Of a stretch of DNA of 64,000 nt, positions 7,689-28,408 are shown one piece after another. Position 1 is the stretch's first letter. Each line of letters opens with the position of its first letter. The notes under the pieces are model-generated. The model saw nothing but the letters and a program-made list of their open reading frames with translations, was not told the DNA's origin and ran no database searches. Origin of the DNA: an uncultured Pelagibacteraceae bacterium (GTDB lineage: Bacteria; Pseudomonadota; Alphaproteobacteria; Pelagibacterales; Pelagibacteraceae); the NCBI GenBank assembly GCA_902539165.1, contig CACBHY010000001.1, positions 62,001 to 126,000 of the forward strand. The letters are read 5' to 3'. A program made the position numbers and the translations under genes.

Positions 7689-8272
7689 CTAGTTTCCTCG
7701 AGGTACTCTTTGATTTTCTTAATCGGGAGCCCCATTATGGTGTTTTCATCTCCAATTATTTCTGAGAATAACGTTCTTCCTTCGCCTTCTATTTGATAAA
7801 CATTGTAAGCGTATAATATGCTATCTGGAATTTTGGCAAGATATATTTCTAATTCATTTTCAGTAAAATCTTTCATCTTGAGTCTGGCTTTGTCTGTGTA
7901 ATTCCAAATCATAGATCCATTTTTTGATACACAAACAGAACTTATTAAATGATGTTCCTTGCCATTAAGCTTTTTTAATATTAATAATGCTTCAGCCCTA
8001 TTTTGTGGTTTTGAAATTAGCTCTCCCCTTAAATCAATTACGCTGTCTGCACCTAACACAATTTTTTCATGATTTTTTGAACTAACTTTGTTTGCTTTTA
8101 ATTCGGCTAAATTTTTTGAAATGATTTCGGGTGAAGCTTTTTCATTTAAGAGACTTTGTTTCACCATGTCTTCATCAACGTTTGAGGGCTCAACATTACA
8201 GAATATATTATTTTTTTCTAAAATGTCTTTTCTAACTTTGCTTTTAGATGCTAAAATTATATTATTTAACAT
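7685..8272 (-). CDS. maf: Maf family nucleotide pyrophosphatase (ORF track extends to 8344; start moved to MLNNIILASKS)
   Basis: IILASKSKVRKDIL, VLGADSVIDLRGELISKP, YQIEGEGRTLFSEIIGDENTIMGLP. Confidence 0.9.
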   Translation of the reverse strand: MLNNIILASKSKVRKDILEKNNIFCNVEPSNVDEDMVKQSLLNEKASPEIISKNLAELKANKVSSKNHEKIVLGADSVIDLRGELISKPQNRAEALLILKKLNGKEHHLISSVCVSKNGSMIWNYTDKARLKMKDFTENELEIYLAKIPDSILYAYNVYQIEGEGRTLFSEIIGDENTIMGLPIKKIKEYLEETR

Positions 8273-9089
8273 TATTGGAATATATTTCGTGTATTTTAAT
8301 AATTGATGCGGCCGTTTCCTCCACAGATTTTCGAGTAACATCAATAACGGGCCATTTATATTTTTGAAAAGTTTTCTTTGCTTTCATAACTTCGTCTTTA
8401 ATATCATCAAGATTAGTATAATTTGTATTGTCCTTTTCTTTAAGTGAGTTCATCCTATTTTTTCTTAAATCGGCCAGTCTTTCTGGTTCGGTGCTAAGCC
8501 CAACAACACATGTAAATTGTGGGTCTTTTTTAAGTTTTTCTGGCAAAGAGTTTTCGTTAACTAGGGGTATATTTGATGTTTTAAATCCTTTGTTTGCAAG
8601 GTAAATTGAGGTGGGAGTTTTGCTGGTTCTACTAACCCCTACTAGAATTATATCAGATTTGTCTATTTCATTAAGCAAGTTTCCATCATCATGGTTCATT
8701 GTAAATTGAATAGCTTCTATCCTGTCATAATATTCCTCATTTAAAATATGTTGACCGCTTGGTTCGTGTAAGGCCTTCTGATTAAGAATTTTTGAAAAAT
8801 TTAGAATTAAATTACCCAAAACTCCAAAGCACGGAATTTCTTTGTCATTGCTAGTATTCGCTAGATATTTTGCAAGATTATTATCGACAATTGTATAAAG
8901 TATAATCGAATTATTATTTTTTTTAGCATCTTCCAAAATTTTTAAAATTTGGTTTTCTGTTCTAGTAAAAGAATATGTGTGAATTTTATATTCAATATTT
9001 TTAAATTGTGCCTTTAAGGCCAGAAATATTCTTTCTAAAGTTTCTCCTGTAGAATCAGAAATTAAATAAATTTGATATGTATTGCTCAT
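8262..9089 (-). CDS. ppsR: Pyruvate, phosphate dikinase / PEP synthase regulatory protein (DUF299, PpsR-like kinase-phosphorylase)
   Basis: YLISDSTGETLERI; VGVSRTSKTPTSIYLANKGFKTSNIPLV P-loop-like motif; VIDVTRKSVEETAASI. Confidence 0.92.
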   Translation of the reverse strand: MSNTYQIYLISDSTGETLERIFLALKAQFKNIEYKIHTYSFTRTENQILKILEDAKKNNNSIILYTIVDNNLAKYLANTSNDKEIPCFGVLGNLILNFSKILNQKALHEPSGQHILNEEYYDRIEAIQFTMNHDDGNLLNEIDKSDIILVGVSRTSKTPTSIYLANKGFKTSNIPLVNENSLPEKLKKDPQFTCVVGLSTEPERLADLRKNRMNSLKEKDNTNYTNLDDIKDEVMKAKKTFQKYKWPVIDVTRKSVEETAASIIKIHEIYSNNVK

Positions 9090-9359
9090 GAATAAAATGT
9101 TAATAAATATGTATTATTTTAATATAATTACTCAATTTAATTTTTGTTCATTTACCCTTGTAAAATAAGGGTTTTATTAACATTAATAATAAATTCAATT
9201 AAACAATACACGAATGTTAATAAAGATCAAAAAAGGTTGATTTTTCAGAGTTTTATTTAATTTTAGATGTGGTTAAAACGTTAATATAATGTTTATAATA
9301 AACAATCTTCGTAATCCACAGGATATAATACTAATACTATCTATATATATATATTTAAT
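9090..9359. other. Candidate chromosomal replication origin region (ppsR-hemE intergenic)
   Basis: Divergent-gene intergenic region with three exact AATGTTAATAAA copies (9096-9107 +, 9173-9184 -, 9213-9224 +), one degenerate copy (9277-9288), a hairpin at 9154-9172 and a one-mismatch DnaA box TAATCCACA (9312-9320); same location as origins of other alphaproteobacteria (hemE). Confidence 0.6.
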
Positions 9360-10361
9360 ATGACACCGTTATATGAAGTAATAATAAATAAAAACACAAC
9401 CACTAAACCTGTATGGATAATGAGACAAGCAGGAAGATATTTACCAGAATTTAGAGAAATAAGAAAAGATAATCCCAATTTTATTGAACTTTGTTTGAAT
9501 CACAAATTATCATCAGAAATAACTCTTCAACCAATTAAAAGATTTAATTTGGACGCTGCAATAATTTTCTCTGATATTCTGATGTTACCATATGGGTTAA
9601 GACAGAAAGTTGAATTTAAAAAAAATTTTGGACCTTTGCTTGGTAACTTAGATATTAAATTAATGTCTAAAGTAGATGAAATAGATTTTACTGAAAAAGT
9701 TTACCCGGTTTACAAGGCCATAAAATCTGTAAGTTCTGAAATGAATTTAAAAAATAAAAACACAATCGGTTTTGTTGGTGCTCCATGGACACTACTTGTT
9801 TATATGATAAATCAACAGTCCCCAAAAAAAGAGGTTAAAAAAAGCTTTTTTACAGATGACTACCTAATAAATAGAACTTTATTAATTATCGAAAAGTTTT
9901 TAAAGATTCATATAAAAAATCAAATTGAAAATGGTGCAAATGTGATACAAATATTTGATAGTTGGGCAGGATTATTAGAAGAAAGAGATTATCCAAACTT
10001 TATTTATACACCCACATTAAATTTAGTAAATTATGTAAAATCATTAAACGTTCCTGTAATTTGTTTTCCAAGAGAAATTAAAAATTATAAAGAATTTTGC
10101 GAAATTGTTAAACCAGATGCGGTGAACATTGATTATAATGTTGATCCTTTGTCGATACAGAAAGACATAAAGATTCCAGTTCAAGGAGGCTTAGACCCAA
10201 AAATTTTGTTGACTGATCAAGAAAATATAAAAAAGGAAGCCCTAAAGTATTTAGACATATTTAAAGATCATCCATATATTTTTAATCTTGGTCATGGTAT
10301 CCTGCCCGAAACCAAACCAGAAATGGTTGAATTTTTAATAAAAACCATACGAGATTATTAA
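9360..10361 (+). CDS. hemE: Uroporphyrinogen decarboxylase
   Basis: PVWIMRQAGRYLPEFREIR, AAIIFSDILMLP, FVGAPWTLLVYM. Confidence 0.96.
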   Translation: MTPLYEVIINKNTTTKPVWIMRQAGRYLPEFREIRKDNPNFIELCLNHKLSSEITLQPIKRFNLDAAIIFSDILMLPYGLRQKVEFKKNFGPLLGNLDIKLMSKVDEIDFTEKVYPVYKAIKSVSSEMNLKNKNTIGFVGAPWTLLVYMINQQSPKKEVKKSFFTDDYLINRTLLIIEKFLKIHIKNQIENGANVIQIFDSWAGLLEERDYPNFIYTPTLNLVNYVKSLNVPVICFPREIKNYKEFCEIVKPDAVNIDYNVDPLSIQKDIKIPVQGGLDPKILLTDQENIKKEALKYLDIFKDHPYIFNLGHGILPETKPEMVEFLIKTIRDY

Positions 10362-18120: not shown

Positions 18121-18785
18121 TGGATCAAGAAATTATAAATTCTTACTCTAAACTTACTAAACTAAATGTTTCACGTGAAACATTCTTAGACTTTGATAAT
18201 TATATTTCAATGATCCTTCAAAAAAATCAAAAGATCAACATAATTAGCAATAAAAATACTAATAAAAAAGACATAATTGAACGACATTTTGTTGATTCAG
18301 CGCAAATAATTGATATCGTTGACTTTAATTGTAAAACAATCACTGATATAGGCTCAGGTGGTGGTATGCCAGGTATAATTATTGCTATTATGCTTAAAAA
18401 TTTAAAAAAAGATATTAAAGTTAAACTTTATGAAAAAAGTTACCATAAAAGCCATTTTCTTAAAGATGTTTCTGCAAAATTAAATTTAAAAACTGAGATT
18501 ATGCAAAAAAATATTTTTGAAGAAAAAAAAATTGAGACAGGAACAATAATGTCGAGAGCGTTTAAACCAATGCCAATAATTTTGGATTTAGTTAATGAAA
18601 ATTTTTCGAGTTTTTCAAATATAATTTTTTTTATGGGAAAAAGTGGAAGAGACGTTTTAAAAAATACTTTGAAGGATTGGGAATTAGAATATTCAGAAAA
18701 AAAAAGTTTAACAAGTGAAGACTCTTTTTTAATTAATGTAAAAAAATTAAAGCGAAAAAACAAAAAATATATTAAAAAAAACTAG
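18120..18785 (+). CDS. rsmG: 16S rRNA (guanine527-N7)-methyltransferase RsmG
   Basis: NVSRETFLDF, ERHFVDSAQIID, DIGSGGGMPGIIIAI. Confidence 0.93.
   Translation: MDQEIINSYSKLTKLNVSRETFLDFDNYISMILQKNQKINIISNKNTNKKDIIERHFVDSAQIIDIVDFNCKTITDIGSGGGMPGIIIAIMLKNLKKDIKVKLYEKSYHKSHFLKDVSAKLNLKTEIMQKNIFEEKKIETGTIMSRAFKPMPIILDLVNENFSSFSNIIFFMGKSGRDVLKNTLKDWELEYSEKKSLTSEDSFLINVKKLKRKNKKYIKKN
18167..18182. promoter_or_regulatory. parS centromere site TGTTTCACGTGAAACA (ParB/Spo0J binding)
   Basis: Exact 16-bp match to the canonical parS; extends to a perfect 20-bp palindrome AATGTTTCACGTGAAACATT (18165-18184); 0.6 kb upstream of parA. Confidence 0.93.
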
Positions 18786-19579
18786 TGCAAATTATTTCCG
18801 TTATAAATCAAAAGGGTGGGGTTGGTAAAACAACTTCGGTAATCAACTTAGCTGCTGGGTTATCACATCAGAATAAAAAAATTTTAGTTATAGACTTGGA
18901 CCCTCAAGGAAATGCTACCACTGGACTAGGATTATCAAACATAGACAATTCTTCAGAGACAATTTATGGAGTTCTAAATGGGACTAAAGAAATAATTGAC
19001 GTAATCAAAAAAACGAGTTTCAAAAATCTTGATATAATAACTTCTAACGTAGATTTATCTGGTCTTGAAGTTGAGACAGCAGATGACAGCAATAGAGCCT
19101 TCTTACTTAAATTGAAATTAACCGCATATTTAAACAATTCTAGAGGCATATATGATTATATATTGATAGACTGTCCACCATCTTTGAGCTTGTTGACTGT
19201 GATGGCATTGGTCTGCTCAAACTCACTTTTGGTACCACTACAAACTGAATTTTTTGCTTTAGAGGGATTAACTCAGTTGATGAAAACAATTGAGAGAATA
19301 AAAGCAAATCTTAATCCTAATTTAATCATCAGAGGGATACTTTTAACAATGTATGATAAAAGAAATAAACTATCTTCTCAAGTTGAGAAAGAGGCTAGAG
19401 ATTATTTTAATGATAAAGTTTATTCAACAGTGATCCCAAGGAATGTCAGATTGTCAGAGGCACCTTCTCATGGGATGCCAGTTTTGATTTATGATAAATC
19501 TTGCCCAGGTTCAAAAGCATATTTTAATTTTACAGATGAATTTTTAAATCAAGAGAAAACAATGGGTAGTGCTGCTTAA
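18785..19579 (+). CDS. parA: Chromosome partitioning ATPase ParA (GTG start)
   Basis: ISVINQKGGVGKTTSVINLAAGL deviant Walker A. Confidence 0.95.
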   Translation: MQIISVINQKGGVGKTTSVINLAAGLSHQNKKILVIDLDPQGNATTGLGLSNIDNSSETIYGVLNGTKEIIDVIKKTSFKNLDIITSNVDLSGLEVETADDSNRAFLLKLKLTAYLNNSRGIYDYILIDCPPSLSLLTVMALVCSNSLLVPLQTEFFALEGLTQLMKTIERIKANLNPNLIIRGILLTMYDKRNKLSSQVEKEARDYFNDKVYSTVIPRNVRLSEAPSHGMPVLIYDKSCPGSKAYFNFTDEFLNQEKTMGSAA

Positions 19580-20427
19580 TGGATTCAAATAAAATAAAAA
19601 GAGGTCTTGGAAGAGGTCTATCGTCTTTAATAGGAGAGACAAAAATTGAAATTCAGAAAAATCAGTTACCTATAAACGATTTAGTACCCAACAAATATCA
19701 ACCTAGAAAAATATTTGATGAAGAATATCTTAACGAACTTATGAACTCAATTAGAGAAAGAGGAATTTTGCAACCAATTATTGTTAGAAAATCTAATGAT
19801 GATCAATCAAAATTTGAAATTATTGCAGGAGAGAGAAGGTGGCTGGCAGCACAAAAAGTTGGTCTACATAGTGTGCCAGTTGTTATAACAGAGGCAGATG
19901 ATTTAAAATCCCTGGAATTTGCAATAATTGAAAATGTTCAAAGACATGACTTAAATCCATTAGAGGAAGCACAAGGATATAAAAAGTTAATAGATCAATT
20001 TTCATATGATCAAGAAAAAGTTTCAAAATTTATTGGTAAAAGTCGTAGTTATGTTGCAAATGTACTTAGACTTTTGTTGCTTCCTGATGAAGTAGTAAAT
20101 CTAATCGAAAATCAAAAATTGTCCGCAGGCCACGCAAAAATTTTAGTTGGCCTTGCTAATGCTAAATTTGTGGCTGATAAGATTGTTGAAAAAAAACTTT
20201 CTGTTAGACAAGCTGAAAATTTTGTAAAATTTTTTAAAAATAAAAAACAAAAACGAAGTAACATAAAGGACGCAAATATTATGCATTTAGAAATGTCGAT
20301 TGTAAATAAAGTCGGTTTAAATGTTGAGATAAAAAACAAAAAAAACAATAAGGGAAAAATTTCTTTTGAATATAAAGATTTAGATCAATTAAATAAAATT
20401 ATCGAAATTGTAAAAAATAATTATTAA
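19579..20427 (+). CDS. parB: Chromosome partitioning protein ParB
   Basis: RGLGRGLSSLIG, PNKYQPRKIFDEEYL, AGERRWLAAQ, IENVQRHDLNPLEEA. Confidence 0.96.
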   Translation: MDSNKIKRGLGRGLSSLIGETKIEIQKNQLPINDLVPNKYQPRKIFDEEYLNELMNSIRERGILQPIIVRKSNDDQSKFEIIAGERRWLAAQKVGLHSVPVVITEADDLKSLEFAIIENVQRHDLNPLEEAQGYKKLIDQFSYDQEKVSKFIGKSRSYVANVLRLLLLPDEVVNLIENQKLSAGHAKILVGLANAKFVADKIVEKKLSVRQAENFVKFFKNKKQKRSNIKDANIMHLEMSIVNKVGLNVEIKNKKNNKGKISFEYKDLDQLNKIIEIVKNNY

Positions 20428-27844: not shown

Positions 27845-28408
27845 ATGGATAGACCAAATTTAATAATATTCAAATTTAATACTTTATATGAAATTTTAAA
27901 AGAGCTAGATGAATATTTGAACTTTGAGATAATTGAAGCTACCAATGAAAAAATTCTTCAAGAATTAAAAATTTCTTCAAAAAATTTTTTGATTTTAACT
28001 TCGAAAAACATCCAAGATGTAGACAAGCAACTTTATTTTGACAATTTACCTATAAAGTTTTTTAAATTATTAGAAAAGATTAATATTAATTTTATCAAAT
28101 CTCAATTTAATCAAAAATCCGAATTAAGTATTGGTAAATATAAACTAAACTTAAACTCAAGGGAATTGATCGAAGAAAATGTTAAACTTAAATTAACTGA
28201 AAAAGAGTCGAATATAATTTTATTTTTATATAATTCTAAAAATCCAGTAACCATTAATCAGCTCCAATCTGAAGTTTGGGGTTATAATTCTAAGTTAGAT
28301 ACTCACACGGTTGAAACTCACGTTTATAGATTAAGAAAAAAGTTACTAAAAAATTTTAACGATAATAGTTTTATTCAAAGTAAAAAAAATGGTTACCAAA
28401 TTAAATAA
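27845..28408 (+). CDS. OmpR/PhoB-type winged-helix regulator with divergent N-terminal receiver-like domain
   Basis: LTEKESNIILFLYNSKNPVTINQLQSEVWGYNSKLDTHTVETHVYRLRKKL winged helix. Confidence 0.85.
   Translation: MDRPNLIIFKFNTLYEILKELDEYLNFEIIEATNEKILQELKISSKNFLILTSKNIQDVDKQLYFDNLPIKFFKLLEKININFIKSQFNQKSELSIGKYKLNLNSRELIEENVKLKLTEKESNIILFLYNSKNPVTINQLQSEVWGYNSKLDTHTVETHVYRLRKKLLKNFNDNSFIQSKKNGYQIK

Follow-up and report, generated by a model that had tools for sequence, protein, structure and literature searches.

The Caulobacter origin has been placed experimentally between hemE and COG1806, and the Rickettsia origin is located there too; both carry CtrA and IHF sites (PMC1914354). The origins of Wolbachia, Ehrlichia and Anaplasma are likewise adjacent to hemE in A+T-rich reduced genomes, where the ppsR neighbor has proved replaceable. 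Their neighbor is COG1253; these bacteria have CtrA and, in most of them, CtrA sites (PMC1914354). The basal unwinding system (BUS) of bacterial origins joins a DnaA box, a short spacer and DnaA-trios with the consensus 3'-GAT-5', whose middle adenine is conserved (PMC8287927). From the box outward, the trio strand runs 3'->5' (PMC6669920).

Here we analyzed a window of 64,000 nucleotides from an uncultured member of the SAR11 family Pelagibacteraceae (C1:62001-126000 of an assembly of 1,207,928 bp in 26 contigs, 93% complete). We predict, with a probability of about 0.9, that the ppsR-hemE spacer is the oriC of the SAR11 (Pelagibacteraceae) genome, at which DnaA would act on an array of relaxed boxes and a trio unwinding element. 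Synteny and a switch in GC skew support this reading, as do the clustered DnaA boxes, the conservation of an unwinding element and a parS close by. It upholds the earlier note, which had proposed an origin in this spacer partly by analogy with the hemE-adjacent origins of Caulobacter and Rickettsia.

The ppsR-hemE spacer and its DnaA-box array

The location between hemE and COG1806/ppsR is seen in the window and in nearly all Pelagibacteraceae loci examined. The order ppsR-spacer-hemE, present in 37 of 40 further loci, is general within the family. In the window, the flanking gene blocks are those described before, and the hemE ATG lies at 9360. With 17.8% GC, compared with 30.0% in the window, the spacer is above genome level in A+T content, as is characteristic of hemE-flanking alphaproteobacterial oriCs. 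A perfect parS and the parA-parB genes lie about 9 kb from the spacer, where the earlier note had put them. The features are listed in the table below.

Features of the putative SAR11 origin region, in window coordinates
Feature	Positions	Strand	Remarks
Putative oriC, 270-bp ppsR-hemE intergenic spacer	9090..9359	.	17.8% GC
ppsR-like gene (COG1806/DUF299), left boundary	8262..9089	-	Identified by sequence features and synteny
hemE (uroporphyrinogen decarboxylase), right boundary	9360..10361	+	
Relaxed DnaA box TTATTAACA, first 12-mer	9098..9106	-	Family-spacer position 9; relatives: TTATCAACA / TTATACACA / TTATAAACA
Relaxed DnaA box TTATTAACA, second 12-mer	9174..9182	+	Position 85; relatives: TTATAAACA / TTATTCACA / TTATCCACA / TTATCAACA
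Relaxed DnaA box TTATTAACA, third 12-mer	9215..9223	-	Position 126; common to near relative L179
DnaA-like box TTAACCACA	9268..9276	-	One mismatch to TTATCCACA
Degenerate box ATATTAACG, fourth copy of the earlier note	9279..9287	-	Column ~190, TTATTAACA/TTATCAACA in relatives
Relaxed DnaA box TTATAAACA	9290..9298	-	Position 201
Anchor DnaA box TAATCCACA	9312..9320	+	Oriented to the unwinding region; relatives: TTATTCACA, TTATTAACA or TAATTCACA
Five DnaA-trios, 4 nt past the anchor box	9325..9339	-	Top ATA ATA CTA ATA CTA = bottom 3'-TAT TAT GAT TAT GAT-5'
A+T-rich stretch (tctatatatatatatttaat)	9340..9359	.	Presumed continuation of the duplex-unwinding element
parS centromere palindrome TGTTTCACGTGAAACA, perfect	18168..18183	.	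Within rsmG/gidB
parA-parB (ParA/ParB-like ORFs)	18785..20427	+	

Several further observations concern the locus and its surroundings. A terminator-like stem-loop (ACCCTTGTAAAATAAGGGT, then T-rich) occupies 9154-9172 and reaches into the second DnaA box. Such a structure almost never arose in shuffles, and the stem is seemingly not conserved among relatives. The spacer has no Rfam match to an RNA element, and CcrM GANTC sites are not enriched in the family spacers (12 versus 10.9). In two loci of genus g9 (L177, L178), the hemE homologues are only ~31% identical and have neither ppsR nor boxes upstream; there, hemE is possibly replaced or paralogous, and the origin has possibly moved. Elsewhere in the window, 27845-28408 encodes an OmpR/PhoB-type DNA-binding protein of 187 aa. 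Its family matches fall mainly in the C-terminal DNA-binding half, and its receiver part seems degenerate or lost. Short OmpR/PhoB-type matches of this kind also occur near the origin in genomes G003 and G026.

The spacer holds exact copies of the 12-mer AATGTTAATAAA at 9096-9107 (+), 9173-9184 (-) and 9213-9224 (+), with the coordinates and strands reported earlier. The degenerate fourth copy AACGTTAATATA (9277-9288), the TAATCCACA box and the A+T-rich stretch before hemE are likewise present. The whole assembly contains five copies of AATGTTAATAAA; the two outside the spacer are intragenic, in a ThiF/MoeB-like gene (L004) and an adenylate-kinase-like gene (L005). The reverse complement of the 12-mer, TTTATTAACATT, includes TTATTAACA, a relaxed DnaA box of the form TTATNNACA. 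It keeps the frame TTAT-NN-ACA of TTATCCACA and differs from it in the two central bases alone. The sixth base of this commonest box is A instead of the C of the classical consensus. The single near-consensus DnaA box counted by the earlier note is therefore too few, since the 12-mers are themselves relaxed boxes and two further sites, TTATAAACA and TTAACCACA, had been overlooked. Four of the 12 TTATNMACA sites in the window fall in the spacer.

The family yielded 29 usable ppsR-hemE spacers, which we compared with dinucleotide-preserving shuffles. TTATNNACA occurs 82 times in these spacers against 10.2±3.3 in shuffles (maximum 20), a comparison that overstates independence because the spacers are phylogenetically related. 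The rearranged control word ACANNTATT is not enriched in the 29 spacers (7 versus 10.5). In 11 held-out genomes, which were not used in forming the hypothesis, TTATNNACA occurs 38 times against 3.9±1.9. There it ranks first of 140 letter permutations, and the runner-up is the same word read one base out of register. The sites recur at fixed positions and strands, namely 9 (-), 85 (+), ~190 (-) and ~200 (-), with a final (+) box next to hemE, and one and the same position can read TTATTAACA, TTATCAACA, TTATACACA, TTATTCACA, TTATCCACA or TTATAAACA in different relatives.

Across SAR11, the 9-mer TTATNNACA, in the DnaA-box frame, is conserved and varies mainly in its two central bases. The earlier note expected the 12-mer to be shared by related genomes; alignment of the spacers bears this out for the TTATNNACA sites at fixed positions but not for the exact 12-mer, which is found in a minority of the spacers examined. 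Since relatives vary the spelling within TTATNNACA and only a minority keep the 12-mer, the conserved object is the DnaA box. Sampling thirds of four complete genomes, we found the densest TTATNMACA cluster at the hemE spacer in three of them; in G043, the hemE spacer is not the top box cluster. The higher density relative to the rest of the genome applies to relaxed boxes and not to perfect TTATCCACA. Several genomes (L025, L027, L028 and L031, and L142, L146 and L149 of genus g3) share a TATGGATAAACTGTACACAACTA-like block on the upstream side of the anchor box, possibly two additional DnaA boxes.

DnaA-trios beside hemE

Positions 9312-9339 of the window read TAATCCACA-GGAT-ATA-ATA-CTA-ATA-CTA. 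The distance from box to trios agrees with the description of the BUS (PMC8287927). A BUS requires three or more consecutive middle-adenine trios 0-16 bp from a DnaA box; the window has a 4-nt gap followed by five such trios. As in the BUS described for Bacillus subtilis and other bacteria, the box is followed by a 4-nt spacer, at least three in-phase middle-A trios and then A+T-rich DNA. The SAR11 element, known here from sequence, differs in that its tandem upstream box is weak and many of its trios are 3'-TAT-5' instead of 3'-GAT-5'; three of the five in the window start with T on the bound strand.

To examine the family, we located the anchor box nearest hemE blind to the downstream sequence in 66 spacers. 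Top-strand NTA (bottom 3'-NAT-5') appears at offsets 4, 7, 10, 13 and 16 in 35-41 of the 66 spacers each, against 1-9 spacers at other offsets after the anchor box (20 at offset 2). A run of three or more consecutive trios begins at offset 4 in 23 of the 66 spacers, which are related and therefore not independent; the shuffle mean is 3.1, with a maximum of 8 over all offsets. In genera g4 and g2, the anchor box is degenerate and no more than 1-2 trios are present. In Pelagibacterales family f2 (L190-L204), a sister family, CTA-repeat arrays such as CTACTACTACTACTA, or shorter forms, are kept beside hemE, and relaxed boxes are fewer. The nearest divergent neighbor of hemE in f2 is a Maf-like gene and not ppsR, which also sets this family apart from Wolbachia, Ehrlichia and Anaplasma.

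Chromosomal position and alternative readings

For GC skew, four complete genomes of the genus were each sampled at twenty stretches of 20 kb, which we pooled relative to hemE. The pooled skew is negative on one side of hemE and positive on the other, a coarse switch with a resolution of ~±60 kb, single genomes being noisy. The best switch point lies at +0.05 of the genome (bootstrap median +0.02, 5-95% -0.04 to +0.06), and the contrast at hemE was reached by 0 of 5000 permutations. Third-codon-position skew in one genome gave the same pattern, with more noise. The flip near hemE that the earlier note anticipated is thus obtained in the pooled data (-4% to +6% of the genome), but dnaA, ~64 kb from hemE in each genome, falls inside the same interval, and the weak skew does not separate the two loci.

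On this ground, the origin might be sought at or near dnaA, with the hemE spacer merely a DnaA-titration or regulatory locus. The pooled contrast is marginally higher at dnaA (0.078 versus 0.071), and G043 alone also favors it (0.067 versus 0.041 at hemE). A published skew survey that included Pelagibacter put oriC at the dnaA start by rule, namely whenever skew and dnaA agree within 7% of the chromosome (PMC2031905). However, in eight genomes we found no TTATNMACA cluster in the 3.2 kb around dnaA, and the alphaproteobacterial precedent is hemE (PMC1914354). We regard an origin at dnaA as highly unlikely; if the survey's rule was applied to Pelagibacter, the origin would have been misplaced by ~64 kb. 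There is also little chance that the repeats serve solely as promoter or regulator elements for ppsR and hemE. These genes form a divergent pair whose promoters are both presumably within the spacer, yet sigma-70-like matches are at chance (3 versus 4.4), and the hemE-side element persists where the neighbor is not ppsR. DnaA-box identity, trio phase and the skew switch are not predicted by a promoter role. A double role as origin and promoters is possible, and since the promoters presumably lie in the spacer, initiation may be coupled to ppsR and hemE.

The repeats themselves allow two other interpretations. The earlier note saw in the 12-mer a possible lineage-specific site for an initiator or regulator, an iteron separate from DnaA boxes. 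Three exact copies within 270 bp, where ~0.001 are expected, and the absence of a perfect TTATCCACA from the spacer agree with this suggestion. Relatives, however, have other TTATNNACA spellings at the same alignment positions, including the textbook TTATCCACA, TTATACACA and TTATTCACA, and the flanks are not fixed beyond A+T bias. Meanwhile, DnaA domain IV of the source genome aligns to E. coli domain IV (PDB 1j1v) with the RPRQ and RDHTT recognition motifs unchanged. A separate iteron is very improbable on these grounds, and we reject a novel-initiator repeat that is unrelated to DnaA boxes and conserved in itself, as the conserved unit is TTATNNACA. A Caulobacter-like origin under CtrA control, in which the GTTAAT words are CtrA half-sites (TTAA-N7-TTAA), would fit the TTAA in every 12-mer and the position homologous to the Caulobacter origin. 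But in the family spacers TTAAN7TTAA is not clearly enriched (24 versus 16±6) and TTAACCAT is absent. A model search of the OmpR-type regulators in the assembly (93% complete) found no CtrA ortholog, with scores of 117 and 137 bits against the CtrA cutoff of 350, or no match. Pelagibacter has also been reported without a ctrA ortholog (PMC2877005). We consider CtrA control extremely unlikely and do not claim the Caulobacter-type CtrA subclass for the spacer. The IHF consensus WATCAANNNNTTR, which may miss real sites, occurs neither in the spacer nor in 15 of 18 genus spacers.

Predicted initiation and relation to known origins

We return to the spacer as the predicted oriC. DnaA would bind the positionally conserved relaxed boxes (TTATNNACA, mostly TTATTAACA), one near each end and inverted boxes between them, with the anchor box next to hemE (TAATCCACA in the window) setting its position. 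Most likely, a DnaA-ATP filament would then cross the 4-nt gap onto the bottom-strand DnaA-trios and stretch this strand, and the A+T-rich stretch up to the hemE start would open. The opened stretch would serve helicase loading, leading to initiation.

Based on its position, box cluster, A+T content and skew, we assign the spacer to the hemE-flanking alphaproteobacterial origins, without Caulobacter-type control. It shares the flanking genes, an A+T-rich intergenic region and several DnaA boxes with Caulobacter crescentus Cori and the Rickettsia prowazekii ori. In contrast to these, it comes without a CtrA ortholog or clear enrichment of CtrA sites, lacks the IHF consensus, is shorter (270 bp) and has mostly TTATTAACA boxes. 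The spacer is well supported as a new CtrA-less, A+T-adapted origin of this known kind, not a new system. What is new is modest: boxes with an A+T-rich spelling, a trio element that extends across the family, and no CtrA. The lack of CtrA, the shifted box spelling (TTATTAACA, A for C at position 6) and the mixed TAT/GAT trios might together reflect an A+T-adapted, regulator-poor orisome timed by DnaA alone, perhaps with an altered DnaA box preference, an idea that we put forward tentatively and hold to be possible rather than probable.

Few bacterial groups in the ocean are as abundant as SAR11, and estimates of replication rate from metagenomes need an origin and a terminus. For such estimates, both have been derived from coverage and not from sequence (PMC9589681). 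An oriC defined in the sequence down to its boxes and unwinding element would provide a fixed anchor for metagenomic replication-rate estimates. The spacer is also a candidate for building replicating plasmids in SAR11 genetics, and it offers a natural example of a hemE-type alphaproteobacterial origin apparently working without CtrA.
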